Shown: one piece after another, positions 3,673 to 39,907 of the stretch
Numbering within the stretch: position 1 is the first letter of the stretch
Layout of the letters: each line of letters begins with the position of its first letter
Assembly (NCBI GenBank): GCA_024195265.1
Contig: JAJLRJ010000002.1
Span: forward strand, 3,270,283-3,334,282
Length of the DNA stretch: 64,000 nucleotides
Source of the DNA: Dendrophyllia cribrosa
Lineage: Eukaryota > Cnidaria > Anthozoa > Scleractinia > Dendrophylliidae
Direction: 5' to 3'
Translations under genes and position numbers: made by a program
The notes under the pieces: generated by a model
Databases searched by the model: none
Seen by the model: only the letters and a program-made list of their open reading frames with translations
What the model was told of the DNA's origin: nothing

Positions 3673-4203
3673 AGTCAGTAGTCAGTAGTTATTAGTTGAA
3701 ATAGAATACTGCAGTGAGTTCTAGTGAATGCTTTCGCGATCGTGACGAATGAGAATACTTCCTCATTAGTGTCATTTCATGCATGGTCGGTCTGAGTCAG
3801 TGTTCTACTGTGTTTCTACGATACTAAGACTGAGGCGAACTTGATGTTTATCAAAACATACAGTTGAAAAATCGAAGAGTCAAAGAAGATATGATTCTCT
3901 GTCAAAAGTGTATTTTCATCGTTAGGCAACTGGGCTGCGATCTACGAATGTTTAACGGACAAGACAAAACATTATCAGCATTTATGACGATTCCACTCGC
4001 CTGTTATGGCAATAATATCAACAAACTCGGAAAAATAGGAGGTTATGAATAGCACAATGCAAAAGAGAAATCCAATTGGCCCGTGGCGGAATCACCCACT
4101 TACCATTTGAAGATACCGCTTATTCAGAAGGTGGTCATATATAACAGAGGTTTCACTTGCTGTAATTTGGTTGTTGATCCGAAACAAAAGTATCAGTCAA
4201 GCT

Positions 4204-4335
4204 TATCGGTCTATCTGTTATCACTTAGACGTAGTATCACGATTGTCAGATACTTTTGCTTGCTTTTGAGACGTCAATATAAAGTTGTATTGACGTCTCA
4301 AAAATCTAGACAATGTTTAATCGTGATACAAAACT
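4204..4335. repeat. Foldback hairpin repeat
   Basis: Two perfect 16-bp arms, TTTTGAGACGTCAATA (4264-4279) and its reverse complement (4288-4303), are separated by 8 bases. Outside them GTATCACGATT (left) pairs with AATCGTGATAC (right), so the hairpin is the core of a longer foldback unit of about 100 bp. Confidence 0.65.
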
Positions 4336-4589
4336 AATTTCGATTTTGAGGCGTCAATATTGTATTATATTGCCGGCTAGTTGGGAGAAAATATATTCCG
4401 TATTGGGCGGAATTAATCGAAATTAGTTTATAGTAGGTAAGGCATAGAAGGTAAGCTTTTCAGAATGTAAAATAATGAATGATTTTATGTCTTATGGTCA
4501 TAAAGGCTGAAAGAAGATTTGATTTATCTGTCAAAAGGGTATTTTCTTCATTGCGCAACTAGCATGCCATATCCACAAGTGTTTTACCA

Positions 4590-5272: not shown

Positions 5273-6509
5273 TAAATCCCATTGTAGGTGACCAAGTTGC
5301 TCGCGATCATCCGTCACCTAAAAAGCATTGCCGCGATCTTCCTTTTCTTAATTGAGGAAAATTTGTACCCATTTTAACAGAAAATGAACGTACATTCCTG
5401 GTACCATTTCACAACGACATCGGATATCGTAAGGGTAACTTGCCGCTCGCGATGCGGCGTGTCTTGACCACACATTTTGTTCGGGATTTTGTTACACGGG
5501 GCTCTGAGAAAACACGCATTAATCGAGGAAAATCGATAATTTGCGGGACATTTTTTGTGATCGATTGGCCAATATCAATCGATATCGATTAACTAATGCT
5601 AAACTATCAAAAGGATCGATAAAGTTACAAAAGTGTTGGAAAACTGGCAATGTAGAAAACCTACCCTGCTTGGGAAGATAACAGTTAAATAAAAAAAAAA
5701 TTCCTTGTGTCTCAACTGGTATATATTTTAACGCCACTTCCCACTCATACTGATTGTTAAAAAAGGTAAACAATCTGCTCTTTGACTTCTTATGGGATGG
5801 AAAAGGAAGATAAAATCCAAAGACGAGTAATGATCAATGAAACCTATAAAGGAGGCATAAAAATGATTGATATACAAGCCTTTAATACTAGGTCGTTAAA
5901 AGCCAGCTGGATAAGGAAATACCTCGATCGACCTTGCAAACAAAGGTAAATGGAAATTCGTTAGCCTCAAATAATTCGTCTGAGGAGGGCAGTTATTTTT
6001 TTCGGAGCCGTTTTTGTTTCTATCTGGATGAAATTTACTGTTACAGTGAATTTTTACTGTTAGTGTTAAAATGCCTAAAATTTTACTGTTTAATGTTACA
6101 TGGCCCAAAATTTAAGTGTTAAGTGTTATCGAGGTACCCGCATTTAGACCTTCATTGATTTTGACGTGAGCAATCAAGATAAAGATATGAAACAATCATT
6201 GTTTCAGCGGTGATTGCGCATTTCCTATTAACTAAAGCCCGGAAAAGATAAGCAAAACGCAGCAAATACCACAAAAAAATTATCCACACGTATTTTGAAT
6301 AGCTCTGACCACTGAAGTACTGCTTCGTCATGGACACAAGCAAAGAACGTGACCTTCTGTGATACGGGACGTATAAATACTAGGACGAAGAAACAATGTT
6401 CAGAACTTGAAATCCTCGCAGTCGAAAGAAGAATAACTACAAGCCCCTGAGCGGATAATTTGCAGTTCGATACGTTGGTGAGTTGTTAAGGCGATGGGGA
6501 ATTATTCCC
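5273..6509. other. No gene recognised
   Basis: Contains an ATCGAT-rich patch near 5560-5600 and short open frames without motifs. The poly-A at 5690-5700 suggests an old retro-insertion. Nothing else is supported. Confidence 0.4.
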
Positions 6510-6518
6510 TTCATAATC

Positions 6519-6612
6519 TAGACTGCGAATACAGCCGCCTCTCATCGCTCCCGGCCGCCAGGAAAGCCCCTAGCGGCCAGGAGCGATGAAAGGCGGCTGT
6601 ATTCGCAGGCTA
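6519..6612. mobile_element. Mutator-like foldback MITE (94 bp)
   Basis: Arms TAGACTGCGAATACAGCC (left) and the complement of TAGCCTGCGAATACAGCC (right) fold onto each other with a small loop. A perfect 9-bp direct repeat TTCATAATC flanks it (6510-6518 and 6613-6621), the Mutator (MULE) duplication length. A half-copy lies at 16237-16272. Confidence 0.85.
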
Positions 6613-6765
6613 TTCATAATCATGTTAAAAGTAACTCTAGCTTTAATACAAACCTTTTGGGTTTTTAACATTTTGAAATGCTTTTTATTTCAAATAGAAA
6701 GATAGTCCAAAGAAGTTTCATTAACTTTTTATCGTTTTAGTTTGTAACGTACCTGAAAACTAGCT

Positions 6766-6773
6766 TATAAAAA
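6766..6773 (+). promoter_or_regulatory. Candidate TATA box of first galaxin-like gene
   Basis: TATAAAAA lies about 145 bp upstream of the signal-peptide ATG (6915). A second candidate, TATATAA near 6870, is only about 45 bp upstream. Which is used cannot be decided from sequence. Confidence 0.4.
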
Positions 6774-6914
6774 AAGCGGCTATATAGCTAAGTGTAGTTG
6801 ACCACGTTAAATAAACGATTGATTAAAAAGCGTAATGCAAAAGACATCACAAGTTTATGATACAACCTAACATATATAACTGAAAATTGTCATCTACATA
6901 GGATTGAGGCGGAT

Positions 6915-9132
6915 ATGGAACAAAAGACGCGATTATTCCTGGTAGTTCTCATTGTGTACAGTAAGTACATTTTCATTGCACTACCATTACTTGCAAAAGC
7001 CTTTGACGTAGGCCAGTGCAAAATACGACAAAAAGTTCAGTCCAAATTTTGTTTCCGATTTAAGCCCAAAAGAAGTTAACTTCCCAGCGCTTATTATACC
7101 TCTTTTTCTAGCCTGTGAACAGGCTTCTTTTTGGGGAATTGGATTAGGTTAAAATCGGCGAGCGAAGCGAGGACTGGGGAAGAGGGAAGGGGCGGCGAAA
7201 CCTTCGCCGCCCCTTCCCTCTTCCCTAGTCCGCGCTTAACCTCACTCAATTCCCCCAAAAGAAGCCTGTTCACAGGCTACTGTTTTTCCAGTGGATTGTT
7301 AAGTATATTTATAAAAACATCTGTTTCATGGGTGTTTATAATCACAGCATTTGAATTTTTTTTCTTTACACGTACAGCTGTCATAGTAACGGTTAGTGGT
7401 GGAATTCCGGATGGTGACTGTTTTCAAAGGCGGCTTAAAAGAGCAGCTTGGAGATGTTGTGGTTCAAGTGACTTTTACAATCCCAGAACCCAGATATGCT
7501 GCGCAGGCTCCGTCTATGATCTGTAAGTTAAATCCTGGTGCCCAGTTCTCACTCTGTCGTGTAAGGTCTCGGCTAACTGTGGAGCTGTGTTGGAAAAGTT
7601 GACATTGCCTTGCCTTACGGCGAATTATACAGTCATCTCTCTCGTTTGCGACCACTCTTGGTGCAGTTGGTCGCTTAAAAGAAAAATCAAGACAAACAGT
7701 ATTTGACTGAGAAAAGAAACGGTAATTTTGTGGTCGCTTACAGAAGCCAAAGTTGAGTTAGTCAGTAGTTCGTTTTGTACATCAAATACTTCGATTTTTC
7801 ATAGACTCGACGCCTAAAATTTCGACATTTGGAGGTAGAAAATACCCACATGCGTTGCGGAATGTTGAATACAAAATTACCATTCTGTATTGCAGGAAAG
7901 TTTCAAAAGATTAACGAAAGACGAGTTTTTTTTTTTTTTTTTTTTTAATGTAATTTCTCATCTAATTTCTACACTAATCATGTCGCTTTGATGTGTCTGG
8001 AAGAAAAAGAAATGTACATTTATTTTCCTTCACAACCACCATTCAAAGGCGAAGATTTTTGTTCAACCCACTGAGAAATTATGCTTCTGAATTCATAAGT
8101 TACAAACGAAAGCCAAAGCTTTCAGTAGCCACGCACCTCTTCAGAACCTCTAATTTCATTGGACCTGGTTATCACGCACATGTATTGTTTTCAGGGCTAG
8201 GGTCCATTGTTCTGTTGTTTGTTCTATTGTTTTCTCAGCCAATCTTGTGAGGCGTTCAGAGAGGTGCGTACCGCCTCAAAGCTTTACTGAGGAATGTTAT
8301 AAGTGTACTTTTGACTGTGAGTCAGTTCCTTATCTGTAACATAAAATATTACTCTGTATAGATCCTCTGGCACCCGTTGTTGCGACAGGACGATTCCTTA
8401 TAACCCCTCGACTCACATTTGTTGCAATGGCGCCATACGCCGTTTAAGGCCTGGTAGCACAAGGTGCTGTGGACAGAGAGATTACAACCCTTTAACTGAA
8501 ACGTGTTGTGGAGGCCGAGTGGTGACCGCGAAAGGGCGATGCTGTGGGTAAGTGTCAATATGAAAAGTAGGTCCGCATTGTGTGATTTTGCCGCTGGTTT
8601 CTGTGTATCATGTCGCGCATTGCTTGCTAGAAGTGTTGCCTGTGAAACTGATAGAATAATGGAATGCGCAATTGCTGGTTCAGTGCGTTAGTTTTGGAAG
8701 GCCGTGTATTGGGTGGTAAATTGTTAAAATTTCATCTCATACATGTGAACTGATGCCGGAGTTCGATTCACGCCCACGTCTTTTGAACTGACAGTACCTT
8801 CAGGGAGACAACAACCCGCCTACGTGCTCTCAACGATTGTAGAAAAGTCTTAGTGCACGCAATGTAAATGTTAAACGTTTGAATATTAATATTTTGTTTT
8901 TAGGGGCCAGCCATTTATACCTCAAACCCAAGTATGCTGTGCCGGTAAACCTGTACCCAGGCCCCCACATGCCAGCATCGTTCGCTGCTGCGGTTACACT
9001 GCGTACGATCAAAGCAAACATTCCTGCTGTAGGGGAGGTATCCGGCCTCTTGGATTTCAGTGTGGATCTTGCCTTGGACCTTGTTGCGATGGGAAATGGC
9101 GGAAAGGTCACACAATGTTGAATCAGTGTTGA
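6915..9132 (+). CDS. Galaxin-like secreted protein (short paralog)
   Basis: Four exons, 6915-6960, 7378-7522, 8362-8547 and 8904-9132, join with GT-AG introns in phases 1, 2, 2 to give 201 aa. Residues 1-24 form a signal peptide (hydrophobic LFLVVLIVYTVIVTV). Next comes RRLKR, a furin-type RXKR site comparable to the processing site before the repeats in galaxin. The mature part has 11 CC pairs in the galaxin pattern CCG-x-YNP-x-TQ-x-CC-x-G (RCCGSSDFYNPRTQICCAG). Galaxins are coral exoskeletal organic-matrix proteins, so I infer secretion and a role in matrix or calcification. About half the CC pairs of the downstream paralog are present. Intron 1 hosts a MULE foldback. Candidate poly-A signals AATAAA lie near 9437 and 9733. 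Splicing is by eye; phase and repeat register agree at every junction. Confidence 0.87.
7109..7279. mobile_element. MULE-type foldback MITE in intron 1
   Basis: Near-perfect inverted arms of about 80 bp starting TAGCCTGTGAACAGGC and ending with its complement, with GC-rich centres (GGGGCGGCGAA / TTCGCCGCCCC). Flanking 9-mers CTCTTTTTC and CTGTTTTTC differ at one position, consistent with a 9-bp Mutator duplication. It sits inside the first intron of the galaxin-like gene. Confidence 0.82.
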
Positions 9133-9139
9133 ATCAAGA

Positions 9140-9525
9140 GTACTGATAAATCAATCAATCAATGAATCAATCAATACCATCAATATTAATCGAAATCAAT
9201 CGCCACCGGAATGTTCCTGTTAGTTGTTTTGTTCCTAGTATTTTGTTGATAATTGTAAAACTGACTTGCATGATATGAAGATTAAACGACTCAATGAAAC
9301 CATACAGACAAATTGTGCCATTGATTTTATAAGTGTAACTTATAAAAAGGCAAACAATTGATATTAATCGAAACCAATCGATGAATCAATCCTTATCGAT
9401 TTCTATCGGCATTCGATAGTTAAATCAAACTTTGTAATAAACTGTTTCGAAATCGATTTTCATCGATTGCTATCGGCATTTGATTGATATCGATTGTTAT
9501 CGATTATCGGTTTATCGATTGACTA
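9140..9525. repeat. ATCGAT/ATCAATCA degenerate array
   Basis: Begins just past the stop codon of the first galaxin-like gene, as (TCAA)n-like words, and grades into dense ATCGATT words up to about 9525. It belongs to the same family as 4590-4720. It probably overlaps the 3' UTR, because poly-A signals occur inside and after it. Confidence 0.65.
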
Positions 9526-13255: not shown

Positions 13256-16200
13256 ATGACACAGTTTGTCTGTACGGCTTTGATAGCCGCTGTGCTTTTT
13301 ATTGTTGGTAAGTTAAAACTGAACCCTTTATATCCCATTAGTGCCAAAAATCAAAAGTTAAGAAAAATCCAAAATTGTATTTTGCAAAATATCGAAAAAC
13401 AAATGGTACAATGCAAAAGCACTGACGAAGAGATTTCATTTGAATGGTCACACAATAGGATTTCGTTGACAGGCGCAAAAGTTAGAACAAATGGTACCAT
13501 GCAAAAGTACTGCTGAAGAGATTTCATTTGAATGGTCACACCATAGGATTTCATCCACAGACTCAAAAGTTAGAACAAATGGTACAATGCAAAAGCACTG
13601 ACGAAGAGGTTTCATTTGAACGGTCACACCATAGGATTTCGTTGACAGACTCAAAACTTAGAACTACACTACATGTCTCTATAATTGCTTCCGTAAGTGA
13701 ATGGGTTAACTTTCGTTTTAAGTTTTTGGATCCGTAGCATTATCATTGTAGAAACCTTGCTTTCTGCTCATGAATAAACCATTACAGAGTTGGTTTGAGC
13801 GACGTTGTGGCATTGTGCAAAACCATTCATATTACAATGAGTTGTAGTTGCGTGTGAATTGTGTGCACCGAGCCTTGTAATGTTACTGAAAAACAGACAT
13901 TCCAAAATGGCCTTTTAAAGTGCGTCTAAACGACTACATTATTATATTTTATAAAATGAAATACACGTGAAGTGCTAAAATGCAATTAAATTAAACATTG
14001 CAGTGATAAAGGAAATTGAATGCAGATGCACCCGTGAGCTGCAAGTTGCCAGACGAGTCTGATAGTATTTAGCATCACAGTTTGGGAGCAGGCCGGGATC
14101 GAAATTAGCTGTTATAATAAAGTAAATAAATTGCTTTTTCTTCGTCAACGTGGCTCTCAATAGTTCGCAATATTTTTTATTACTTATACTTTGATGTAAA
14201 AATACTACCATTCTTTATTAGTTGATGCCGCAAACAAATGCCCAGTCACTGGTGATAAAGAATTATAGTGTTGATCCGATCAAAATATAGGGAACTATGG
14301 CGAGACACCTTAAGTTCAGTTTTTATACAAATTTGTCGACAGTTGAATCATCTTTACCTGGTCGCAGACCTTGCTACAACTTGCGCCGGAATGATAGAGT
14401 TGAGAAAGACCGCATATCTTATCCAGACCGCTGCTGTGGCAACTTACACTACAATGATCGTACCCAGCTTTGCTGCCGCAGTCGACTTTTCCACAGGAAA
14501 CCTGGCTATTTCTGCTGTGGTTCACAAACATACAATTTCAGAACTCAGTTGTGCTGTGGTGGTGTCGTGAAGACCAAAATAGGCTCCCTTAACGCCTGCT
14601 GTTGGCCCGCAAATACTCTGTATAACAGTAACACGCAGACCTGCTGTGCTGGATCTATTGTCCCAAAAATATCTGCTGGTCAAACAAGTAGCTGCTGCGG
14701 GTGAGTAAAGTGAATCCATCTCCGGACGGGCCCCCCGTGGGGACTCCCGTATAAACTTGACTGGGGTGATCGTCGGAGATTTCAAAAGCAAACTCTAAAA
14801 TAATTGTCGTTAAGGTGATTCCATCGAAAAAGAAGTTGCAATGAAAAGAAAAAGAAAAAGAGAAACTAATTAAATAATAGGGCAATTTCAGCATCTGCAC
14901 GCTCCCAGTGAAACGCTAAAAAGTGATTACATGAGAATATTTCAAAATATACTAAGGAAAAATTCTTCAAATATGGTTATAAAATAGAAAAAAATATTTT
15001 CTTCAAATACATGGAATAAAAAAGATAGGTCACCATGCTCGTTTAGGAAAAAACTTCTACTTATTTACTAAGGTAACTGAGTCCTCAAAGGAAACCTTTT
15101 TGCTTCGGAGTGCGCGCGCGCTCGTGCACGCGCAAATCACGCAATTTATTATGCGCAGTAGTGATGCGCAATGCAATACTAGAGAATCACCTTAAGTTTC
15201 TTTTATTTTTATTTTCAACAGAAAGAAAAGTTACAACCCCTCCACTCATGTATGCTGTTCTGGAAACATTTCTCGTAAGCCTGCTCGGTGCTGTGGCCGT
15301 GTGTCTTATAATCCCAGTACACATGCGTGTTGCGGAGGAAAGGTGTTGTCTGCCTCTGGCATCTCTTCGCCTGGTTGTTGTGGCAACAAAGTCTATGACA
15401 AAAATCAAAAGGTGCATAAAAAACATCTATTATTGTTGCTGCTGCTGTTACGTTTTCATAAGATACTTTCGAAAGCGGATTATGTGCAACTGATAAAGTT
15501 TTGAGGATTTTAAAGCTGTGTGTGCTGTGTTATCTGAAAAGTACCACGATATACAGTAAAAGATAGTTGCATTTCTTTTCTGTCGATCAATCAATTAATC
15601 AATCAATCAATCAATCAACCAATGAATCGATCGAGCGATCAATCAGTTAAAATTAATAGCCTTCCATTCATCCATCCATCCATCCTTCCATCCTTCCATC
15701 CTTCCATCCACCTGTCTGTTTTTCAGCCTGTCTGTCGATCTGTCAGATCAGTCAGTCTGTATGTCCGTCATTCAGTTAGTCGGTATGTCTGTCTGCCGAG
15801 AGTCTGTTAGTAAGTGAAAGTAAGCCTAATATATCCTTTACCTTTCAGCTTTGTTGCTGGAACATTCTTTATAACAAGCAGCCAAGTAACCTTCAATTAG
15901 GGTGTTGCGGTAGTACACGAATATTCACCGCGTACCAGATGTGTTGCGGGCTTCAAGTTACAAGTTTTCCAGGAAGTGTAAAGAACGCTCGCTGCTGTGG
16001 AAAAAGGAGCTATGATTCTGCTACCCAGGTGAATATTCCTTTAACTAACAGCCTGATCACATTCCCTCTTACGTGCCGAAGACAAAGTAAAAACCAGAAA
16101 CTTGGGGGTATCTGAAAGGATTCATTTCAAGCTGGATATATCACTAAATCTCGTACGCTGTGTTAACTAAAAACAAATTATTTGACGGAATATATGTCGT

Positions 16201-28581: not shown

Positions 28582-31500
28582 TATTCCCTCCTTGGTGCTT
28601 ACGTATTAAAAAAATTGAAACAGAGTTTCTCGTAATAGGTTAATTCATTTTTTCAGCTGGTTACGTCATCCACGAGTCACTCTTCTCATGGCAGTGTGTC
28701 TGGATCCTAACCCACAGAACAGCTGTCTAGTTTTGGAACATTTTGAGCTTTCGTCTCTATACCGCCTCCTTTACAAGACCCAAATTGAGATGGACTTACC
28801 CGAGCGGATTCGTGTATTGTTAGATGTAGCTGAGGGAATGACATATCTTCACACTCATTCCATAGTGCACGGATTCCTTAACTCATACTCAGTTGTAATT
28901 TATGAAAAGTTCAGGGCGAAGATTGGCAGCTTGGAGTATTCCCAGGAGAATGGCGAACAAGCATATGACAACCCATGCGCAATTCATGAAAACTGGACGG
29001 CACCCGAGCAGCTCTTGCATGCGCCTCCAAACATGGCTAGCGATGTTTACAGGTTTGTTTATGCTGTGATTTGTTTGGATTTATCACCGGTCAGACTTTG
29101 TGCAGTCAACCTCCCGAAACCTCTATTAAGCGTCCCTCTGTTAAGCGGTCATCCTCTATTAAACGGTCACTCATCAAACCCCAGAAATGGCTCCCCATAT
29201 TAACTGTAATGTTGACCTCTTTTAAGCGGTCACCTCTATTAAGCGGACGCAGTCACCGTTTAGATTTCTTAATTTATTGGCGAATTTGATTGTATTTTAC
29301 CTCTATTAAATGGTCACCTAGTTAAATGGTCGGGAAGAACCGTCTCATTTGCACTAAACAAAGTGAGTTTCTTGCGTCACGAAATTAAGCTACGCGGCCC
29401 GAAATCACAGACGACCATAACTGATTTTTTCGTTTAATATAATGTTGAATGTGATGGCAAAACTTTTGATGATGTGGTTCACAACAAAGATTTGCCTCAC
29501 GAACAACATTATAAAATCCGATAGCCAGGCATGAATTTCCTTGAACACGTGGGGAGCAGGGATGGCGCAGTGTTGAGCGCTCGCCTCCCACCAATGTAGC
29601 CCGGGTTCGATTCCCGGACTCGGTGTCATATGTGGGTTGAGTTTGTTGTTAGTTCTCATCCTTGCTCCGAGGGTTTTTTCTCCGGGTCCTCCGGTTTTTT
29701 CTCCCTCCTTAAAAACTAACATTTCTAAATTCCAATTCGACCTGGAATTCGAGGGCCACAGGTTTGTCAGTTACATACGACTGTTAAGTGTTACCCTCGT
29801 TAAACAAAGTCGATTTATTTATTTTTATACCGGCAATTACGTACTTAATTTCTATTTGTCACATTTTGTATTACTGTTGCTGTTGGCAATAAAATATACA
29901 TCACGTGATCAATTTCGCATTCCAGTTCAATTTTTGCCATATTACATGCTAAATTTTAGAACACCTCTATTAAGCGGTCAACCTCTTTAAAGCTGTCAGT
30001 TGGCTATCCCCCGAGGGTGAGCGCTTAATAGAGGTTTGACTGTAGTTCACTTTGATTTGTATTCATTATCATATATTAACATAGAAAAGAACAATTAAAA
30101 TAAAAATTGAACCAAGGATAAAATTGAACTACAACAAAGACGATGGCTAAATAGGCAGATATGTATAGACAGACATTTAGAGAATAGTACATGCATGTAA
30201 CAAATTACATTAAAACCTTGCAACATGTTAACTGTTCTTTCTTCTCAGTTTTGGTTCCCTGATGTGGGAGATTCTGGCTAGAAAGGTTCCATGGTCCTGG
30301 CTCCAGAAGAGTACCATCAAACAAGTGCTGTGTGATCATCAAAGGTCCCTGCCTATGTTAGACATTTGGCCCAGCTACGTTCAGTCCATCATGAAAGAAT
30401 GCCTTCAGGATCCTGCAGATCGACCGGCTTTTTGCGATCTGCAGGGATACCTTCTGGGAATTAGGAATAGCAGGGAAGGTATGACATCGGAAGTCTTAGA
30501 TGGTGCATTTCCATATTGGCAGGAAGCTCAGCGTGGAGCCATATATAGCGAGATCCGTCCAAGTTCAGGGCTCCCAAGGGCGAACACGTGCAGGTCATCA
30601 AATATTCATGTAATGCGTAGGCGGTCCTCGTCCGCATCTCAATGGCATGAAAGACGCCGAAGTGCATGTGTTAAAGGAGGGCTAAAAGATATTTTAAAAC
30701 TGATATCAAATCGCGCCCAGGATTCGCCGAGGGAAAAAGAGATTGAACGATTCGGCTACAAGGTTGCAGAGCGGTTAGCGTATGTTCGAAACATCCGTCG
30801 ACATGCGCGGAACTACGATCGTACAGGCTGGGCGAAGGAAGTTGTTTTGACAAGAGTGTTAGAAGGAGACATAGAGAGAATTAAGAAGGAAGAGAAAAAA
30901 GCAAAGTCGGCTAAAGAGAAACGGAAGCAATTGAGCAGACGCGATCGGCAGTACAGTGTTTTTGATGAAGAAAGCTTCGAACGATTACAAATGATATCCT
31001 CCAAGTATAAGAAAAAGAATTGGTCAAAGATCTTACATGGAATGGAAAAATTAAGGAATTCGATGGAGGGATTTAAGGGACAGGTGTTTGAAGAGCTCAA
31101 TGTGCTTAACTACGAAAAGAAACAGCAGCTAACCGAGAGTTACAGTGTTCCAGAACACAGCAAAAGATGTGACCATTTCGGCGAGGTAATCAAAGCAATG
31201 AAAGAAAACATCGAAAGAGCTGGTTCACGACCAGAAGATAAGAGCGGCTATGAATATAAAATTGACAGGCAAAAGTTGTCATCGAATACAGGGACGTCTA
31301 ATAAAGGTTCTAAATTTCTAGACTCGTCACGTTCCAAAGGCCCACTGTTGCCGATATACGCTCAGCCCGATAAGAAAAAACGAACTGAGAAAGAGGGAAG
31401 TAACTGCGAGTTCCAGGCAGAAAACAACGAGGCCCGCAACAAAGAGACAACTGGGATAACAAGAATGGATGGAACAGACCTAACAACGATACGATCACAG

Positions 31501-32256
31501 TTAAGGAAAACAGCAGTGGAGAAGACCCCCAGCCAAAAGACATCTGGAATAGGAAGACTGGATGGAACGGACTTAACAACGATACGATCACAGTTAAGCA
31601 AAAGATCTGGGATAAGAAGACTGGATGGAACGGACTTAACAACGATACGATCACAGTTAAGCAAAACAGCAGTGGAAAAGACCCCCAGCCAAAAGACGTC
31701 TGCGATAGCAATACTGGATGGAACAGACTTAACAACGATACGATCACAGTTAAGAAAAACACCGATGGAAAACTCTACATCAGGCCGCAATGCTGACATG
31801 ACGGCAACAGTTAGAGGTGAGGCCGATAGCAACAATCAAGAAAAACCGAAGATGTCAGACAAGGATATTCATGATTCTAGCTCTCATGGCATGTATGCAA
31901 TATCAGACTTTTTACGACAAACGGACTCGTTTAGAAAAGAACATTTAGAAGCGATAGCTTTGAGAAGTCAAAACAATTCGACGGTAAGTGCAATTGTATC
32001 GGACAGAAGCGAAGAGGAAATTAATGGTCGGCCACGTGCACAGTCTGCTAGACAGCCACGTCGCAAGTCTCGGAGCAGAACAGTTTTATCAAATAAAGAA
32101 AGGGACAGCACAGATGACAATAGTCCTCATCGCTGGAGCGTTAGATTCGATAGATCACAGGGGCAACCAACATCAAGGCTACCAACAAACTCTGATGAAG
32201 AAGTTAATGACATTATAAAATCATTCGATCTAGGTAAATCCCTTGGAAAATTCTAG
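23597..32256 (+). CDS. TEX14: TEX14-like ankyrin/pseudokinase protein
   Basis: Five exons: 23597-23781, 24632-24881, 25519-25739, 28657-29052 and 30249-32256. Phases are 2, 0, 2, 2, all GT-AG; 3060 bp give 1019 aa. Residues 3-110 hold ankyrin repeats (GNSALYYAVVRNRRKCVKFL, EGLTPVNAACLNNNVECL). Residues about 195-420 are a kinase fold. The beta-3 lysine (TVKRF) and alpha-C glutamate (KEADLL) are kept, as are APEQL and DVYSFGSLMWEIL. The glycine loop is absent, HRD is HGF and DFG is replaced in AKIGSLEY, so it should be catalytically dead. Ankyrin repeats followed by a pseudokinase is the layout of TEX14, which stabilises germ-cell intercellular bridges in mammals. The remaining 600 residues are basic, with coiled-coil-like stretches, a four-copy repeat (757-853) and GPLLPIY (715-721). 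Human TEX14 is longer (about 1.5 kb residues). Function here is inferred from architecture only. Confidence 0.86.
24356..24490. mobile_element. PIF/Harbinger-like MITE in intron 1
   Basis: GGGCTGGTTCCCACT (left) and AGTGGGAAGCAATCC (right) are imperfect inverted ends, bordered by TAA (24353-24355 and 24491-24493). A 3-bp TAA duplication is the Harbinger signature. The interior has inverted CGGAATCGGAAGTCAG / CTGACTCCGACTC. It lies in intron 1 of the TEX14-like gene. Confidence 0.65.
25351..25496. mobile_element. Foldback MITE in intron 2
   Basis: Arms TTGTAGTTAATTTTTTAGC... and the complementary ...AAAAAATAACTACAA, then CAGGTAATTTTTATTTTTCC against GGAAAAACAAAAATTACCTG. The outer ends are CATG-rich. 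The element occupies the end of intron 2, about 20 bp before the exon 3 acceptor. Confidence 0.75.
26213..26384. repeat. Dispersed repeat, inverted partner of 40218-40395
   Basis: About 170 bp that reverse-complements to 40218-40395. Shared blocks (given for the 40-kb copy) are GGAGAACGTGAACACA, TTTTCCTTTCTCTATTTGAA and TCAAATGATCAAATTATAG. Both copies lie directly next to Harbinger-like MITEs. Confidence 0.8.
26493..26706. mobile_element. PIF/Harbinger-like MITE in intron 3
   Basis: Left end AGGCAGTTACACGAGACG and right end CGTGTAACACCACCT are inverted, bordered by TAA (26490-26492 and 26707-26709). Inner arms also pair: TTTTTAGCGCAACAA with TTGTTGCGCTAAAAA. Confidence 0.8.
27345..27509. 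mobile_element. Foldback MITE (AATAGACCAATTCCG)
   Basis: Long arms beginning AATAGACCAATTCCGATATA and ending with the complement, then GGCTCCGAGGCTTAGG against CCTAAGCCTCGGAGCC. The centre holds AAAACAAAAGAAAT / ATTTCTTTTGTTTT. The arms are nearly identical. It lies in intron 3 of the TEX14-like gene. Confidence 0.85.
27998..28580. repeat. (ATT)n microsatellites
   Basis: ATT runs at about 28003-28024, 28413-28427 and 28543-28580, the last being the longest (about 12 units). All are in intron 3 of the TEX14-like gene, within 120 bp of exon 4 at the nearest. Confidence 0.85.
29103..30042. mobile_element. Tigger/pogo-like element in intron 4
   Basis: Left part CAGTCAACCTCCCGAAACC and right end CTTAATAGAGGTTTGACTG are inverted. 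Many internal copies of CCTCTATTAAGCGGTCA occur near both ends. A tRNA-derived SINE and a Penelope-like tail are nested within it. The left end is diverged and lacks a TA flank. Confidence 0.65.
29553..29745 (+). mobile_element. tRNA-derived SINE, copy 1
   Basis: The head resembles a tRNA gene: A-box-like TGGCGCAGTGTTGAGCGC and B box GGTTCGATTCC. It is followed by a tRNA-unrelated body with GTGGGTTGAGTTTGTTGTT and CTTGCTCCGAGGG. A second copy lies at 60320-60515. It is not a real tRNA, because a matching 3' acceptor arm is missing. Confidence 0.82.
31462..31758 (+). repeat. Four-copy coding repeat in TEX14-like tail
   Basis: Four units of LDGTDLTTIRSQL (the first with M for L) separated by spacers such as KTAVEKTPSQKTS. 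Units start near 31465, 31558, 31618 and 31711. The third follows the second after a shortened spacer. DNA identity between units is very high, so the expansion is recent and may vary in copy number. Confidence 0.88.
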
Positions 32257-32479: not shown

Positions 32480-33467
32480 TTCCCGCTTTAGTACAAAACG
32501 CTCACTTTTCCGTCCTTTCACCGCCAAAAAAATATCCCATTTGTGTGCTAAGCTTTGTTGTTTGGCGTTTCTCTTCATTGGTCGGAGTCATTTTTCAAGT
32601 TCTAAATTGTTTTCGTTTCAGTCAGTCACTATTTTTTAAATCCAAATAATATTTTAGCATTCATCCTCATGTTTAAATGAATATTTCGCTTCATTTCACT
32701 TCACTCACGTCTCCAATGATAACTTCCAACTAAGGTCAAAGCTGCCCGGTTGACCCTAACCCTAACCCCAGACCCCAGCAAGTTGGAAGTAAGCTGAATA
32801 TCAGGCCTTAAGATCGCGGGGGATACCTGGCCATGAATAAATTCATAAGGCAAAATTTTGGCAGAGGTGTCACTTTGTAAAACGTTGTATCGTGAATGTT
32901 TGAAAGCCGATTTCACTAAAATTTAACAGAGATATTGGCGAATAATGGAAGTTCATAAGGATTGTTTTTTATTGAAGGGATCGAGCTTTGTGGCAATGCT
33001 ATAAGCCACTAAAGTTATTATTATTATTTTTTTTTTAAAAACGTGGTTGTGTCCAAGTTTGCTCCTCGAGAAGAACACAAAGCACGGTTGATTTCACCAC
33101 TCACTGACCTGTCAAAACGTCTATTGTGTCATATCTGACTCCGATTTATTTATATCAACTTTAATTAACAGTTATTAGCTTTTAAAGGAGTAAAATTGTC
33201 CATGTTAGAATTTGAAGCCTCATATCTTTCCTTTGAAAGCCTATTTAAAAATTTTGAGTCAGATATGACAATCTATAATACACCTAGTTTACCTCCCTGC
33301 AGTGTCAACTCATGAAATTCTCTATCTGCGCTGAATTCTTGGACACAAAATTGCTTGTTTTTACGCTTCCGAAGGCTTCCCGAGCAAACACGAATGCAAA
33401 AAGTATATATTTATGGTAATTTGGCTCATTTAAATCCACGGGCTATTGCCAACACTTCATGCAGAAA
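32480..33467. other. No gene recognised
   Basis: Intergenic DNA between the TEX14-like gene and the DIRS-order element. It has a two-unit CCCTAA word near 32753 (too short for a telomeric block) and a poly-T run near 33030. Confidence 0.45.
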
Positions 33468-33650
33468 ATGTAATTTCTGACATCTGAGTGACGTAGGAGC
33501 GAACTAGTCAGAAATTATTATTCTGACGGCACGATATAGAGGTTTGCGTGTCGTCATGGGACATCTCGGGACTATTTAAAGGTTTGGCGGGAGATATTTG
33601 TCATTCTACGTCGGTCAGTCTTCTCGAACGTTGCCTTTTTTCGTTCAAGT
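33468..33650 (+). repeat. Split direct repeat A1
   Basis: Starts ATGTAATTTCTGACATC and ends GTTCAAGTTTTT. Contains a TATA-like CTATTTAAAGG at about 33574, so it probably holds the element promoter. It is nearly identical to A2 (38503-38687). Confidence 0.85.
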
Positions 33651-34479
33651 TTTTGTGTTTCCTGAGCTCGTGTTCCTATTATGTCGATCTCGCAAGATGT
33701 TCAAGCGTTTTGAAACAACAAAATCGTTATGAGAACAGATCTTAAAGTTAGTAGCTGATTCCGTCGATAAAATCAAGCGTTTTGGCGTCGAAGGTGTTGA
33801 TGAACCGAGTAACGAGAAAAATAGAAGTCCCGCCGAGAGGAGTCTAAATCGTTATGCCAAAGGGGAACAAAATACAGTACAAGTTCAATGCCAAACTTCA
33901 AATTCATTGGTCGGGGTTTAATCCCAACTTGGAACCAACGCGGTTTTTAAGGCCAAAGCGTCGGTGTCCGAAGGTGCGTCTTTCATCGCCGAAGGTCAGA
34001 AACTAATCTTGTTAGCAGCTCAGATTCATTGGATTTTGGATGAACGGCGGTAGAGTAGTACACACAGCATGCATGAGCTGGCTGATGATGAAAAAGATTG
34101 GCAAAAAGAATTGCTGCGCAGAGGAAAGAACTGAGAAGTCTGCTACGTCCACAGCTATCAGAAGATCCACCAAACAACCTTATTCTTCGTGTTTTCCCAC
34201 ACTCTCGTCCCACTTTTGCTGGTTCCCGAAACCTATAAGAGTGTGTTCATACTACTCGTTTATCGAAAGGTAATTCACACAGAAGATTACTGTTGACACA
34301 GGAACGAAGTAAGTTTGAGGTTTCATTTGTTTATTCCCTGATTGATTCGCTCGAGATAAGCCAAAGAGCCTAATCGGAACCTGAAGAACTTTGAATTTAA
34401 GATCCGCCCTACCTCCAATTTCGTCATTTCTGCGCACGTTTTGGTAGGGAAGATTATTTTATCCATTGAGTTTTGGCGA

Positions 34480-35010
34480 ATCATTGGCGGCCCCAATTTC
34501 ATTTTGAATGTTATCAGAGATGGTTACCAAATTCCATTTATTATGAGCTTCACGCCTCGGTATGATACCAACAATTCAACAGCTCTTGAGATCCAGGCTT
34601 TGTTGCATGGCGAATTTATCTAGAATTTTTGCGTTGCAATTGCGTTGATGGAATCGTTTCTTTTCCCTATATCCTCAACCGTTGAACTGCAATTGTTTCA
34701 GTTCAGGTAGTGGCTAGTTCTAGATGAGGCGTATCTTGGATCTAAGACACAAATCTTCATAATGTATCCCACAGGAATTTATGTGCGAAGGCTTGCATTC
34801 TATTAAGAATGTGTTTCCAAGGATTACTTTTGCTCTTTGATTTGAAATCAGGATTCCATCATGTGGATATTTTTTCCAGAGCATCGAAAATATTTGGCTT
34901 TCCCATGGGATTTTGGCACATGGCACACCAGATATTCTCAATTTATTGTGTTGCTGCTTGGTCTTTCCAGTGCATTTTTTACGTTCACCAAATTCCTGGA
35001 ACCTTTGGAA
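34480..35010 (+). pseudogene. DIRS-order reverse transcriptase remnant
   Basis: Translation in shifting frames gives FILNVIRDGYQIPF and NNSTALEIQALL (the N-terminal RT region of DIRS-type proteins). Further on come FDLKSGFHHVDIF, FGFPMGF and FTKFLEPLE. The catalytic FLDD box is lost where a LINE tail interrupts at about 35045. Confidence 0.78.
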
Positions 35011-35044
35011 CGCATCTGAAATCGCAGGGCATTCTGGAACCCAC

Positions 35045-35047
35045 ATT

Positions 35048-35083
<36 letters not shown>

Positions 35084-35290
35084 TGGTGTAACCATAAGAA
35101 TGGAAACTATTCAGAAAACAGCATTGTTGGGTACAGCAAAGATCCTGAGAAAGGTGCTGTCCTTGTAAGAGGAAAGAAAGAAAAGTCCTGGAACCCATGG
35201 TGACATGTTGGAACCCGCTTCCAGGGAATATCAACCAGACAGATCATTGTGCCTGAGCCTTAAAGGAATAAACATAATAATAATAATAAT
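35045..35290 (+). mobile_element. LINE 3' tail inside DIRS-order element
   Basis: An (ATA)n run at about 35050-35083 is followed by a segment whose frame ends QKTALLGTAKILRKVLSL. A second (AAT)n tract follows at 35273-35290. This looks like a 5'-truncated LINE or its 3' end with a simple-repeat tail. Confidence 0.5.
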
Positions 35291-35525
35291 ATAATAAATG
35301 TCTTTATTGCATAAGATGAAATACATATCCCATGTTACAAAGTAAAGTAAATAGCACAATTAACAGGAATATTAATATAAAGCTAGTAGTTCTAGTGGTA
35401 CAGGTCTTCATTAGAATTAGATGCTGGATCTTTCCCGTTCTGGTTGTCAAGTTGATTGCGAGAAGTCTAATTGGTAGCCAAATTACCAATTTTCGTGGAT
35501 CGGCTACAATATAATTGACACTCAT
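35290..35525 (-). mobile_element. LINE 3' tail, opposite strand
   Basis: On the minus strand the segment ends CAATAAAGACATTTATT followed by (ATT)n, a typical poly-A signal plus simple tail of coral LINEs. It is inserted between the RT and RNase H remnants of the host element. No motif of the ORF is left. Confidence 0.4.
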
Positions 35526-35929
35526 GGTTTGTTTCTTGTAAGTAAGCTTGATTTTAGAGTTGACAAGCTTTGTTAGAAACTTATGAGCTCTGTGTTAATT
35601 TACAGGTGTCTAAGTACGTCTATTGTTTGCCAGATTAATTCAATGACACCGAGGTATGGAATGTTACCCAATTTGACTGGCTGGATATTTGCATTTCATC
35701 ATTAATTCTCGGCATTCTTGGAATTATTTTTCGTGCACGATTGGGAAGAAGACCCCATATTTTATAATTTGAACTTTCAACAGCAGTGTTAGTCCGGCTA
35801 GTTCCGCTGCGACGCTTTTGTTCAGGATCCAGTTTAGTTTCTTACAGGAATCGCTCCGCGGAAGTGTCGCAAAAGTCTTTTAGTTAAGGTAGCTTGCTGT
35901 GGACAAGTTTTCCACTGGAGCTTTTGAAG

Positions 35930-36160
35930 CTAATTTAACTGGTTAGAGAGTGTGTTCGCACACTGATAATCAGAATGTTGTTAAATTGTCAGAGCCGGCG
36001 GTGTGGTTTGGGATCTACAGGAGATTGCCTTGAGCATTTTTCTTTCGCTTCGGAGCGTCATATGCAGTCGGACCTTAATTGGCTTCATCGAGTCCAGAAT
36101 TCTCAGGCAAATTATTTCAATACGATTTATTGATTTCGACGATTATTCTCCAATGGGGCG
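35930..36160 (+). pseudogene. RNase H remnant of DIRS-order element
   Basis: THTDNQNVV-like sequence (TDNQNVV, with the RNase H aspartate) at about 35963 and IDFDDYSPM at about 36129, in different frames. Both are landmarks of the RNase H domain following DIRS-type RT. Confidence 0.7.
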
Positions 36161-36329
36161 ATGTTCTATTTGCCAATCTTAATTAGCTAAGGGTTTTTTA
36201 TTTAGGTATCGGCTTATGCTTTATTAAGGGATTTATATTATTTAGTTTGTTTTGTATCCCCTGTCGATCTGTCTCTCTAGATCCCCTAGATGGTGACAAG
36301 TACTTGATTGCATTTTTTGTATGCCAACG

Positions 36330-37730
36330 AAGTCAACGCCCTCCGGTGGAAGCATGATTTGTTGTTAACACTCCCCGGTGGTGTGACAAGTACTTTGCCT
36401 CCGGTATTTGTATCCTGACGAACGCCTCCCAGACCTTCCAGCTAATAAGGTCATCATCTGGGAATCGAAGCATGGTAAGAGAGATCTTGGAAGACCAGCA
36501 AAGACAATGGTAAAGATGATGATTGAACATGCTGTACTTTGGCCTGTCTTATGACAGACCGTGATGCAGAGAGTGTTAAGTCTCGTTCGGTAGACGGAAC
36601 TGAGAGCTGAGCTGAACGCCCCCCGGTGGCGAGCATGATTTGTTGTTAACACCCCCTGTGTGGTGTGATAAGTTGTTTGACTCCGTTGTTTGTATGCAAC
36701 GAACGCCCCCCGGTGGCGAGCATGATTTGTTGTTAACACCCCCTGTGTGGTGTGACAAGGAGTTTGACTCCGTTGTTTGTATGCTAACGAACGGCCCCGG
36801 TGGCGAGCATGTTTTGTTGTTAACACCCCCTGTGTGGTGTGATAAGTTGTTTGACTCCGTTGTTTGTATGCAACGAACGCCCCCCGGTGGCGAGCATGAT
36901 TTGTTGTTAACACCCCCTGTGTGGTGTGACAAGGAGTTTGACTCCGTTGTTTGTATGCAACGAACGCCCCCCGGTGGCGAGCATGATTTGTTGTTAACAC
37001 CCCCTGTGTGGTGTGACAAGGAGTTTGACTCCGTTGTTTGTATGCAACGAACGCCCCCCGGTGGCGAGCATGATTTGTTGTTAACACCCCCTGTGTGGTG
37101 TGACAAGTTCTTTGACTCCGTTGTTTGTATGCTAACGAACGCCCCCCGTTGGCGAGCATCGAAGTGAAGTTATAAGCCAAAATATTAGTTTGGATTTGTT
37201 GGTTAGTATACGGGCTTAGATGCGGTCGTGTTGATGGAATAGGAATAGATGGAATCGGTAGTGAACGTAATTTGTCGTTCACACCTCCTGGTGATGTGAC
37301 CTGTTTCTCGAGGAGTCCATAATTTGTATGCTAGTGGACACCCTCTTGGTGGAGAGTTTGATTTGCGTGTGTTGTTGACACTCGCCTGGTGATTTGACAT
37401 GTACTTTGAGTCCGTTATTTGTATATTAGTTTAAGCACCCGCGGTAACGAGTTTAATTTGTTGTAAGCACCCCCGGTGGTGTTACATGAGTTTTGCGTCC
37501 ATATTTTGTATGCTAGTTTGAGCACCTAACACCTCCTGGTGATGTGACCTGTTTCTCTAGGAGTCCATAATTTGTATGCCAGTGGACACTTCCTTGGTGG
37601 AGAGTTTGATTTGCGTGTGTTGTTGACGAGTTTGATTTGTTGTAAGCACCCCCGGTGGTGTTACATGAGTTTTGCGTCCCGGTAATTTTGATTTGTTGTT
37701 GGCGAGTTTTATGTCTTATTAGCACTGGTC
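36330..37730. repeat. 87-bp minisatellite, degenerating outward
   Basis: The word CGGTGGCGAG recurs at 36624, 36711, 36798, 36885, 36972 and 37059 with exact 87-bp spacing, and as CGTTGGCGAG at 37147. Each unit contains TTGTTGTTAACACCCCC and TTTGACTCCGTTGTTTGTAT. Diverged units continue on both sides (36340-36420 and 37270-37730). Because 87 is a multiple of three, several frames on both strands stay open. I regard these as by-products of the repeat, not genes. Confidence 0.88.
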
Positions 37731-38419
37731 GATGGTGATATATATTTTGGGCCCTTAAGGGTATATCCTTCGAAGACCCTGAGTTCGTTTTGGAGCTGTT
37801 CCCATCATTCGTTTTACGTAAGGGTCCTCTTGTTTTATGCAGTTGTAGTTTTTACTAATTCTGTCTTTTTCCGTTTCTTTGTCTTTGCTTTTTTGTTTGT
37901 TTTTCTTTATTTGTTCGTTCCAGATGTTCTCAGCTGCGGTGTATGAGCACATTTCGCTGATTTCTGTGACCCGTCCTTAAAGAAGTTGGCGTTCAGGTTG
38001 AAGTCGGCAGTCATTGCTTCCAGAACCACAGGGACCACCTATTCATGCAGAGGGGCTTTTGCTGGAGGCTTTGAATTGAGATATTTTGCTTGACTTGAAG
38101 AATGTGTGTATTCATATACTTACCTTTGTGGTAATTTTCAGTATTGAGGATTAAATGTAGAGACATTAGTTTTCATAGTGGTTACGACACCATTATTATT
38201 GATCAGTTATTTTACTATTACGGATTATTTACAAATAGTTTAAATATAATTATTGTACCGGACAATTCTCTGTTTAGTACCCATTCGTTAATAGTCAGCT
38301 GGACGTCAGCGCCCGATAATGCTGGTGTGACAGTTTGGACTCTAGTTGGTTTTGGAAATGTTGGATATTTAATTTTCTTAATTTCCTATTTCATTCATTT
38401 CCCTTCCTTTGTCTCTAAT

Positions 38420-38500
38420 AAGATACATTCATCAGATGACTGACTGACTTATCCTAAATAAACTATTTGACATTGAATGTCTCGTGTTAGTGGAGTCAGA
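38420..38500 (+). repeat. Split direct repeat B1
   Basis: AAGATACATTCATCAGATG ... GTTAGTGGAGTCAGAAT, nearly identical to B2 at 38949-39029. Includes the poly-A signal AATAAA. Confidence 0.85.
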
Positions 38501-38502
38501 AT

Positions 38503-38687
38503 ATGTAATTTCTGACATCTGAGTGACGTAGGAGCGAACTAGTCAGAAATTATTATTCTGACGGCACGATATAGAGGTTTGCGTGTCGTCATGGGACATC
38601 TCGGGACTATTTAAGGGTTTGGCGGGAGATATTTATCATTCTACGTCGGTCAGTCTTCTCGAACGTTGCCTTTTTTCGTTCAAGTTT
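38503..38687 (+). repeat. Split direct repeat A2
   Basis: Nearly identical to A1 and directly joined to B1, as required for circular-intermediate integration in Ngaro/PAT elements. About 260 bp of unique sequence (38688-38948) separate A2 from B2, which may be a later insertion. Confidence 0.85.
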
Positions 38688-38948
38688 TTATTTATGTTAC
38701 GTTGGGAAATGAAATGTTACACAAGTATCAAGTAATGTTATCAGTTTTAGTACCTTTGCCCCCGAGGTCCAGTGCCACTGCATCGTTATAGGGGGGTATA
38801 CGTTTCCACATTTTTTTGGCCACTTCTAAAGGGTGGTTTTTTAGTGGTTTTTCGTGGCTGGCGTGGCACAATTTTCTGAACTTTTGAAACATAATGTAAG
38901 TGAAATGTAATTTAAAAGGGTCAGGAGAATAGACAGAATATGTTATTA

Positions 38949-39029
38949 AGATACATTCATCAGATGACTGACTGACTCATCCTAAATAAACTATTTCACA
39001 TTGAATGTCTCGTGTTAGTGGAGTCAGAA
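38949..39029 (+). repeat. Split direct repeat B2 (right end)
   Basis: Second copy of the 81-bp B repeat, with AATAAA, ending GGAGTCAGAAT. It marks the right boundary of the DIRS-order element. Confidence 0.82.
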
Positions 39030-39060
39030 TGAACAAGGGCTGCGGTCACATCTGGGCTAC

Positions 39061-39905
39061 TAGAGATTTCTCATAAAAGCACAGAACCTTATGCAAATTA
39101 GTTTCTCATTTTACGAAAATGCAAATAGACTTTCTTTGAAATTAAAACAGGCGTCTTTTGTGCGCACCGTGACATACAATTACAGTGAAAAAGACACCGG
39201 GAATTTTGGAAGCTGCTATTATCGAGGAAGGGTGGATGAAAGAGGGAACCAAAGGGTGGGAGGTAGTTTAAAAAACGGTGCAAAATCTCATTCTAGCAAG
39301 TTCACAAGTACCAGAGTGTTAAAGATTACTACCGGAAGTCAACAATCAGTACAATTGCAAAAAGCGTACAAAAACATGTCAACTCTATTAAGTGTCCGAC
39401 TGCCCCAAGTTCCCGACCAAAAGCAAAGAAGAAAGAGAAAAAAAAATGAAGGACTCGTTGAAGACGACGATGGGTTAGTCGACGCTTAAGACTCGGACTT
39501 GGATGTTGATATACAATACGCAAGACCCCAATGTTCTAGAGAAGAGACGTGACCAAGCACGGGAAGAAAAGAAAACTGACAAAAGCGAAGAAGTGGATGA
39601 CCCCATTCCGTAGGCCGAAAGACCAAAATCTAGCCGTTCAGACCTTCAAAAGGAAGCTCTGACTTCTCACACAAGTATGTGTGAGAGGGCAATGAGTACT
39701 CTTGAAAGGATGGAAAATCTTTTCGAAAAAATTGAAAAGACTGTTTAAATGACATGCATATGTGTAAGCTGTGAAAGAGAATTTAAAAAAATAACGGCAC
39801 AAAACGCTTTGTCCACTCATTTAACACAATTATTGGGTTTATTTGCATTTGTGTAAAACAATGAACTAATTTGCATAAGGTTCTGCGCTTTTATGAGAAA
39901 TCTCT
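39061..39905. mobile_element. 845-bp TIR element with ORF relic
   Basis: Long inverted ends of about 45 bp: TAGAGATTTCTCATAAAAGC then CCTTATGCAAATTAG, with the complement at the right. Inside, a 132-codon frame (39091-39489) ends in a basic KQRRKRKKN stretch. A separate later frame reads ERAMSTLERMENLFEKIEK. Basic/coiled-coil pieces like these occur in Myb-like proteins of Harbinger elements, but I could not identify the family. Confidence 0.65.
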
Positions 39906-39907
39906 AA

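Follow-up and report, generated by a model that had tools for sequence, protein, structure and literature searches.

A split-repeat retrotransposon family, probably PAT-type and mobilised in trans, in the stony coral Dendrophyllia cribrosa

The window analysed here, a 64,000-nucleotide stretch of the Dendrophyllia cribrosa genome (G000:C12:3270283-3334282), carries on its plus strand, at positions 33468-39030, a degenerate retrotransposon with split direct repeats. We consider it very probable that this element is one copy of a non-autonomous, long-dead, PAT-type (Pat1-like) family of tyrosine-recombinase retrotransposons that spread by the cycle proposed below. The evidence for this reading is drawn from sequence and comprises stop codons shared among copies, an apparent renewal of the A repeats in one copy (L032), conservation of the A and B repeats over the body, a matching junction in relatives, a target preference and a fixed crossover point. 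All genome searches covered 627 Mb in 22 contigs.

Structure of the window element

A direct-repeat search gives the order A1-body-B1-A2-X-B2. The A pair as detected (33462-33654 and 38497-38689) is 193 nt long and 98% identical; its first six bases do not belong to the element's A: in the left copy they are flanking sequence, in the right copy the last bases of B1. A1 proper (33468-33654) and A2 (38503-38689) are each 187 bp and differ at two of 187 positions. The B pair (B1, 38416-38502; B2, 38944-39030) is 87 nt long and 97% identical, with three of 87 positions differing. B1 contains an AATAAA, ends in GTCAGAAT and adjoins A2 without a gap; the B1-A2 junction, GTCAGAAT-ATGTAA-TTTCTGAC (38495-38516), is the putative recombinase site of a circular form. 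A2 includes an inner palindrome (38542-38562) and is followed by X, a 254-bp spacer (38690-38943), and by B2, the right end of the element. Seven inverted pairs were listed for the window, and none joins the two ends of the element.

The body between A1 and B1 is degenerate. GYQIPF (34522), FDLKSGFHHVDIF (34836) and TDNQNVV (35962) occupy three short frames, each with stops on either side, the second within the remnant of gag and reverse transcriptase (RT; 33655-35040) and the third within that of RNase H (35761-36300). Between these remnants lies an insert flanked by an AAT microsatellite, (AAT)n (35041-35320; placed at about 35045-35300 in the sequence comparison), which is partly absent from the copies L032, L034 and L035. 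An 87-bp tandem array (about 36300-37160) follows, which together with its diverged units spans 36301-37700. L049, a relative described below, has a counterpart with units 82-91 bp apart at the same place, between the RNase H and recombinase parts; the array is therefore an old part of the element. The degenerate tyrosine-recombinase region (37761-38415) contains four pieces 69-73% identical to L049 and has lost about 295 bp that are present in L032, L033, L034 and L035. Seven open pieces of the window compared with Pfam gave no RT or recombinase match and one weak, unrelated match.

A first-pass annotation had described a DIRS-order retrotransposon with the order A1-body-B1-A2-B2, marked by FDLKSGFHHVDIF and TDNQNVV, with nearly identical repeats around a body full of stops. 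Both repeat pairs, the order, the motifs and the contrast between repeats and body hold, and relatives with open recombinase frames have the same B1-A2 junction; X had been omitted, and the right end lies at 39030, not 39029. A genome search with the right end (38400-39030), in which 40 of 498 first-look candidates were scored, returned at least 49 matches, amounting to 40 loci. A 37-nt pattern across the B1-A2 junction occurs at 14 places (13 loci) genome-wide, the reversed control pattern at none. Because of these matches and junctions, the split-repeat structure is far beyond chance.

Full copies, solo units and other forms

Solo units outnumber full copies. Among the 40 loci, A-X-B units visible from end to end account for 30 and full copies, with B1 before A2, for six (L001, which is the window copy, and L002-L006); A is truncated at three (L023, L024 and L039). 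Body pieces in the same orientation stand upstream of L024 and L039, and these two loci may be the right ends of broken full copies. Six of the 30 solo units (L043-L048, the 'V' units) share a longer X. In the tree and the comparison by region, the B part of the six 'V' units is misaligned by an inner duplication, so their B figures were left unused; the units were kept in the tree. Genome-wide, a 30-nt pattern for the start of A occurs at 174 places, about 100 of them listed, and its control at none. Among 20 new A starts, 17 lead into X, one leads into the body (L083) and two lead into neither within about 650 bases, and a complete right end lies within the stretch at only four. Three A starts on another contig (G000:C5, 26595335, 26625304 and 26669491) carry the same mismatch at distances of 30 and 44 kb and probably represent a tandem segmental duplication.

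Most solo units are best read as products of deletion between A1 and A2, the counterpart of solo long terminal repeats (LTRs), because a tree, modestly supported, mixes solo with full units and because a full-length dead copy with the long-X right end exists (L052). The 'V' solos thus have a full-length source in L052, and the idea that they form a family lacking one is rejected. The A-X-B units might instead form a mobile non-autonomous family of their own, comparable to SIRE. We think this unlikely, if worth keeping in view: it would account for their abundance (174 A starts against 14 B-A junctions, a ratio inflated by the longer and stricter junction pattern) and for units whose X is 5-10% diverged and whose A is often less than 3% diverged. 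However, both L052 and the interleaving in the tree, whose support is modest, speak against it, and a solo unit would possess no B-A junction from which to restore its ends.

Loss of the segment from A1 to A2 would leave such a solo unit, and loss from B1 to B2 would leave A-body-B. At L066 (contig C2, 250-336) the body ends in a single B, and no further A, X or B match occurs in the next 1465 bases. L036, part of the L007/L036 tandem, reads (A-B)(A-B)(A-X-B) over 8376-9451 with exact B-A junctions. The expected right end of the copy at C16:6754231 (L068) gave no match. Within A, the inner palindrome GTCAGAAATTATTATTCTGAC is less variable than the remainder of A past its first 14 bases (7/794 versus 135/5961, p 0.008) and is perhaps a candidate second recombinase-binding site; in L049 it carries at least one change.

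Relatives with open recombinase frames

Two relatives retain open tyrosine-recombinase frames. L049 (C16:57547000-57554900) has A1 at 1216, the array at 3857-4370, B1 at 5526-5613, A2 from 5614, X, and the end of B2 at 6152. Its 372-aa open frame matches PF00589 (1e-10), and all 17 of its matches among solved structures are Cre or the derivative Tre (Tre, 4.4e-11; Cre, 9.1e-10). Other L049 frames match RVT_1 (3.2e-13) and zf-CCHC (2.4e-4). L050 (C20) has a 388-aa open frame matching PF00589 (9.6e-12), together with RVT_1 (4.9e-16), zf-CCHC and an RNase H match of 3.4e-4 that falls below the cut-off. In both relatives PF00589 lies upstream of B1, where the window keeps a degenerate remnant only. 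The B1-A2 junction, with two mismatches, occurs 3-23 kb downstream of four of five relatives (on C12, C16, C17 and C20). The few species-named sequences among the listed relatives of the element proteins come from stony corals, namely Porites lobata, Pocillopora meandrina and Montipora foliosa.

A DIRS1-like element is rejected, as both the A and the B pairs are direct and no inverted repeats join the ends. An LTR retrotransposon is likewise rejected: the left end has A only and no B, and target-site duplication across 36 paired ends is not above chance (one of 36 at 4 bp, 0.31 expected). True LTRs or inverted terminal repeats in a full-length relative, named in the first-pass annotation as a refuting result, were not seen in L049, whose A and B pairs are both direct; in L050 only the right-hand repeats are seen. 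The initial suggestion of a Ngaro/PAT-type element can be narrowed. PAT (Pat1-like) is favoured over Ngaro because of a Dam-like stretch in L050 (below the Pfam cut-off), the zinc knuckle in gag and the internal repeats downstream of the recombinase. The zf-CCHC knuckle scores 21.5 bits in L049 and 21.7 bits in L050, against a cut-off of 20.8, and PF05869 is borne by 10 of 120 listed relatives of the L050 Dam-like stretch. Comparison of that stretch with solved structures gave nothing useful, and an extra piece of L032 compared with L050 gave short, chance-level matches only. A Ngaro-like element is improbable on this evidence, although split direct repeats are found in both groups, the Dam match is under the cut-off and much of the Dam-like region is missing from L049. 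About 480 bp of the L050 region that follows RNase H have no counterpart in the window.

Renewal of the repeats around a dead body

The repeats within a copy are generally alike. A1 and A2 differ at 1/187 positions in L032, 6/187 in L034 and 1/176 in L035 (plus a 12-column gap), compared with 2/187 in the window; B1 and B2 differ at 0/87 in L032, L035 and L031, 3/83 in L034 and 5/87 in L033, compared with 3/87 in the window. Moreover, the repeats of single copies share variants. L032 carries, in its two A repeats alike, a variant at columns 39 and 132 of A that the other 11 A repeats in the comparison lack. Variants at columns 98 and 109 are common to the A pair of L032, the A pair of L035 and the three A repeats of L036, and a variant at column 28 occurs in every A repeat of L036. 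Because copy-specific variants are shared in this way, the A repeats of one copy appear to derive from one template, as a split-repeat cycle predicts. Ordinary gene conversion at each locus would also be expected to give the two A repeats of a copy variants in common. As the process that keeps A1/A2 and B1/B2 alike, in place of transposition cycles, it is nevertheless quite unlikely, for the different flanks, fixed ends and single target preference indicate that the copies transposed, and one process explains both.

The bodies of the copies point to decay of long standing. A search with the gag-RT piece (33655-35040; 32 of 32 candidates scored) gave 37 matches and at least 13 dead-family loci including the window; those other than the window are 92-98% identical in the main body piece. 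Five further loci appeared at 70-74%, together with weaker or shorter matches. Five copies (the window, L032, L033 in part, L034 and L035) are 96.4-98.5% identical in pairwise body comparisons. Over 2646 bp of this comparison four one-base indels are private to the window; other body indels occur in a single copy or are common to several. At window stop codons, L032, L033 (part), L034 and L035 have stops in 368 of 400 cells (86/93, 138/148 and 144/159 for the three window frames), a count that excludes gapped cells and 35031-35319. Beyond the ends of the element, nothing but short repeat matches is common to the flanks of the first 30 loci, and recent segmental duplication is thus rejected as an origin for the copies; this comparison did not set the flanks of L040-L048 against one another. 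Because stops are common to copies with different flanks, the body was already dead before these insertions arose. That the copies spread while coding and all decayed later, with A1/A2 likeness reflecting recent insertion, would agree with the low A1/A2 and B1/B2 differences of most copies and with indels private to single copies, but is highly improbable, since the shared stops across different flanks place most stops before the split and rule out decay only after spread.

Two of these copies carry further insertions. In L033 an 832-aa open frame (5478-7976, minus strand), Gypsy-like by eye, lies between two body pieces and is evidently a later insertion. In L034 the sequence directly before B1 is interrupted by a 1648-bp insert; its ends are inverted, and it is probably a DNA transposon.

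Taken together, the comparisons suggest that a dead body passed through a split-repeat cycle, which would mean that the proteins came from elsewhere; mobilisation of the dead family in trans is supported. The enzymes were apparently borrowed from a better-preserved relative. Comparison with L049 points the same way: the window is 87.3% identical in A1, 88.4% in A2, 88.5% in B1, 89.7% in B2 and 80.2% in X, versus 72.5% in the RT part of the body (34239-35034) and 72.7% in the recombinase part. Conservation of A and B above the body fits a passenger that would need its ends only. TATTTAA at A106, TCAGTC at A148 and AATAAA at B42 occur at the same offsets in the window and L049 and are putative promoter, start and polyadenylation signals. 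The first-pass annotation had proposed either a dead copy mobilised in trans or repeat homogenisation, and had pointed to intact relatives and to repeat-versus-body divergence as ways to tell. The first proposal agrees with the shared stops and the L032 variants. The second survives in part, as renewal at each transposition would explain the likeness and a separate gene conversion is not needed. The divergence comparison gives 87-90% for A and B versus 72.5% for the RT part, and the relatives have open recombinase frames and a split RT.

Target preference and crossover polarity

The insertions favour AGAAA-N6-TTTCT, a preference new here, which matches the junction GTCAGAAT-ATGTAA-TTTCTGAC in arms and spacing. 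In the open-access literature we recognised no report on the target motif that PAT or Ngaro elements use or on the polarity of their crossover; the main subscription papers lie outside it, and we claim no priority. The signal was already present in the first 40 loci. At left ends, the last five bases before the element match AGAAA at 3.07 of five positions, against 1.39 (standard deviation (sd) 0.15) at flank-internal positions (n=45). At right ends, TTTCT is matched at 2.45 of five positions, against 1.37 (sd 0.15; n=44), with the best offset exactly six bases past the end. These counts omit truncated ends, ends outside the stretch and flanks shorter than 60 bases. Twenty further left ends, from new census places (17 exact, one with one mismatch and two of the relatives' type), give 3.0 against 1.35 (sd 0.22); four further right ends (2.25 against 1.40, sd 0.52) are uninformative. 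Several target sites lack one arm. A requirement for spacer homology was rejected, as the six target bases match ATGTAA at 1.95 positions versus 1.73 (sd 0.18). Recombinase sites usually comprise two inverted arms of 11-13 bp around a segment of 6-8 bp, according to the account of such sites in PMC3212892.

The two ends of the insertions differ in a consistent way. At 43 of 45 left ends the target arm is followed by the element's ATGTAA (one mismatch allowed), whereas none of 44 right ends has ATGTAA or a one-mismatch form; eight later right ends are also not ATGTAA. Directly before the crossover, 34 of 45 left flanks have an A. Right ends have T in 39 of 40 rows, the remaining row being the misplaced end of L042. 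Because left ends keep the element's six bases and right ends do not, the crossover falls at one single point. If both strands were exchanged, staggered by a six-base spacer, about half of the insertions should carry the opposite junction pair. We tentatively propose that only one strand exchange is inherited, either because a single-stranded complementary DNA (cDNA) circle is inserted or because a single-strand exchange is resolved by replication; the odds seem to us somewhat short of even. Strand-biased repair would be an alternative to single-strand exchange. Integron cassettes and the CTX phage use single-strand exchange of this kind.

A proposed cycle and the points against it

In the proposed cycle, transcription would run from A1 to B2, and a relative would supply the RT that copies the element RNA. 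The internal B1-A2 junction would template both ends and close a circle. The relative's Cre-like recombinase would then recombine the GTCAGAAT-ATGTAA-TTTCTGAC junction of this circle with a host AGAAA-N6-TTTCT site.

Several points weigh against this account. Transcription or expression, the circle, transposition, the helper and the one-strand exchange are all inferred, and none was observed. RT is spread over overlapping frames in both L049 and L050, either of which is at most a putative helper; the PAT assignment draws on an L050 Dam-like stretch whose PF05869 match (E 0.0065, 16.6 bits) is under the Pfam cut-off of 28.1. The sharing of lesions concerns five copies, with L033 included only partly, and indels private to single copies exist, most notably in L034, whose A repeats moreover differ at 6/187 positions. 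Right ends were accepted only when ending in AAT, TAT or GAT, and the 20 further left ends were chosen by a pattern starting with ATGTAA and test the flank only, not polarity. In the two exceptions among the 45 left ends, L053 and L058, A is missing its initial 12 and 7 bases, respectively. Finally, the arms of one locus match each other no better than arms across loci (1.75 within, 2.08 across), and mutually matched arms at each site are thereby rejected.

Neighbouring elements in the window

Another, separate element occupies 39061-39906, starting 30 bp to the right of B2; its inverted arms are 70 nt long and 89% complementary. Open frames with cysteine-rich CCG repeats lie at 14291-16112 and presumably resemble galaxin, a coral skeleton protein. 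Further open frames, at 28619-29200 and 30232-32253, are kinase-like by eye.

Comparison with known systems

Site choice and DNA joining by tyrosine-recombinase retrotransposons are largely a model, and the many copies described here offer natural junctions. These suggest a palindromic target preference, no detectable need for spacer identity and a crossover at one edge, so that sequence data from any genome that contains elements of this sort could be used to test the single-strand question. Of the present results, the target preference and the one-sided crossover most deserve to be taken further. The family also appears to provide a clear case for trans-mobilisation in a DIRS-order element, with a parallel in SIRE.

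Like the echinoderm form of Pat1-like (PAT) elements, as outlined in the relevant passages of PMC4157794, the family has split direct repeats, a gag with a zinc knuckle and internal repeats that follow the recombinase, and its relatives L049/L050 have a tyrosine recombinase; a candidate Dam-like region, below the cut-off, occurs in L050. Unlike that form, the window copy is non-coding, has a 254-bp X between A2 and B2 and carries a tandem array between RNase H and the recombinase. The Ngaro families of Cafeteria burkhardae share the order A1-[ORFs]-B1A2B2 (ORFs, open reading frames) and occur as isolated AB units, which the section on them in PMC8547959 likens to solo LTRs; in contrast to the present family, they are described there with coding potential, and neither a target motif nor a crossover polarity is given for Ngaro in that section. 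SIRE, the A2-B2 part of VIPER in Trypanosoma cruzi, is likewise a free-standing A-(own spacer)-B unit, and its origin and mobility are left open in the portion of PMC6681497 that treats it. Its spacer is about 30 bp, compared with 254 bp here, and it belongs to another lineage. Finally, the integration model for DIRS1-like elements, as set out in part of PMC3266345, resembles the one proposed here in that a circle junction recombines with the genome without target-site duplication. That model involves a 3-bp identity between circle and target, whereas in the coral family the arms are alike and the six crossover bases differ.

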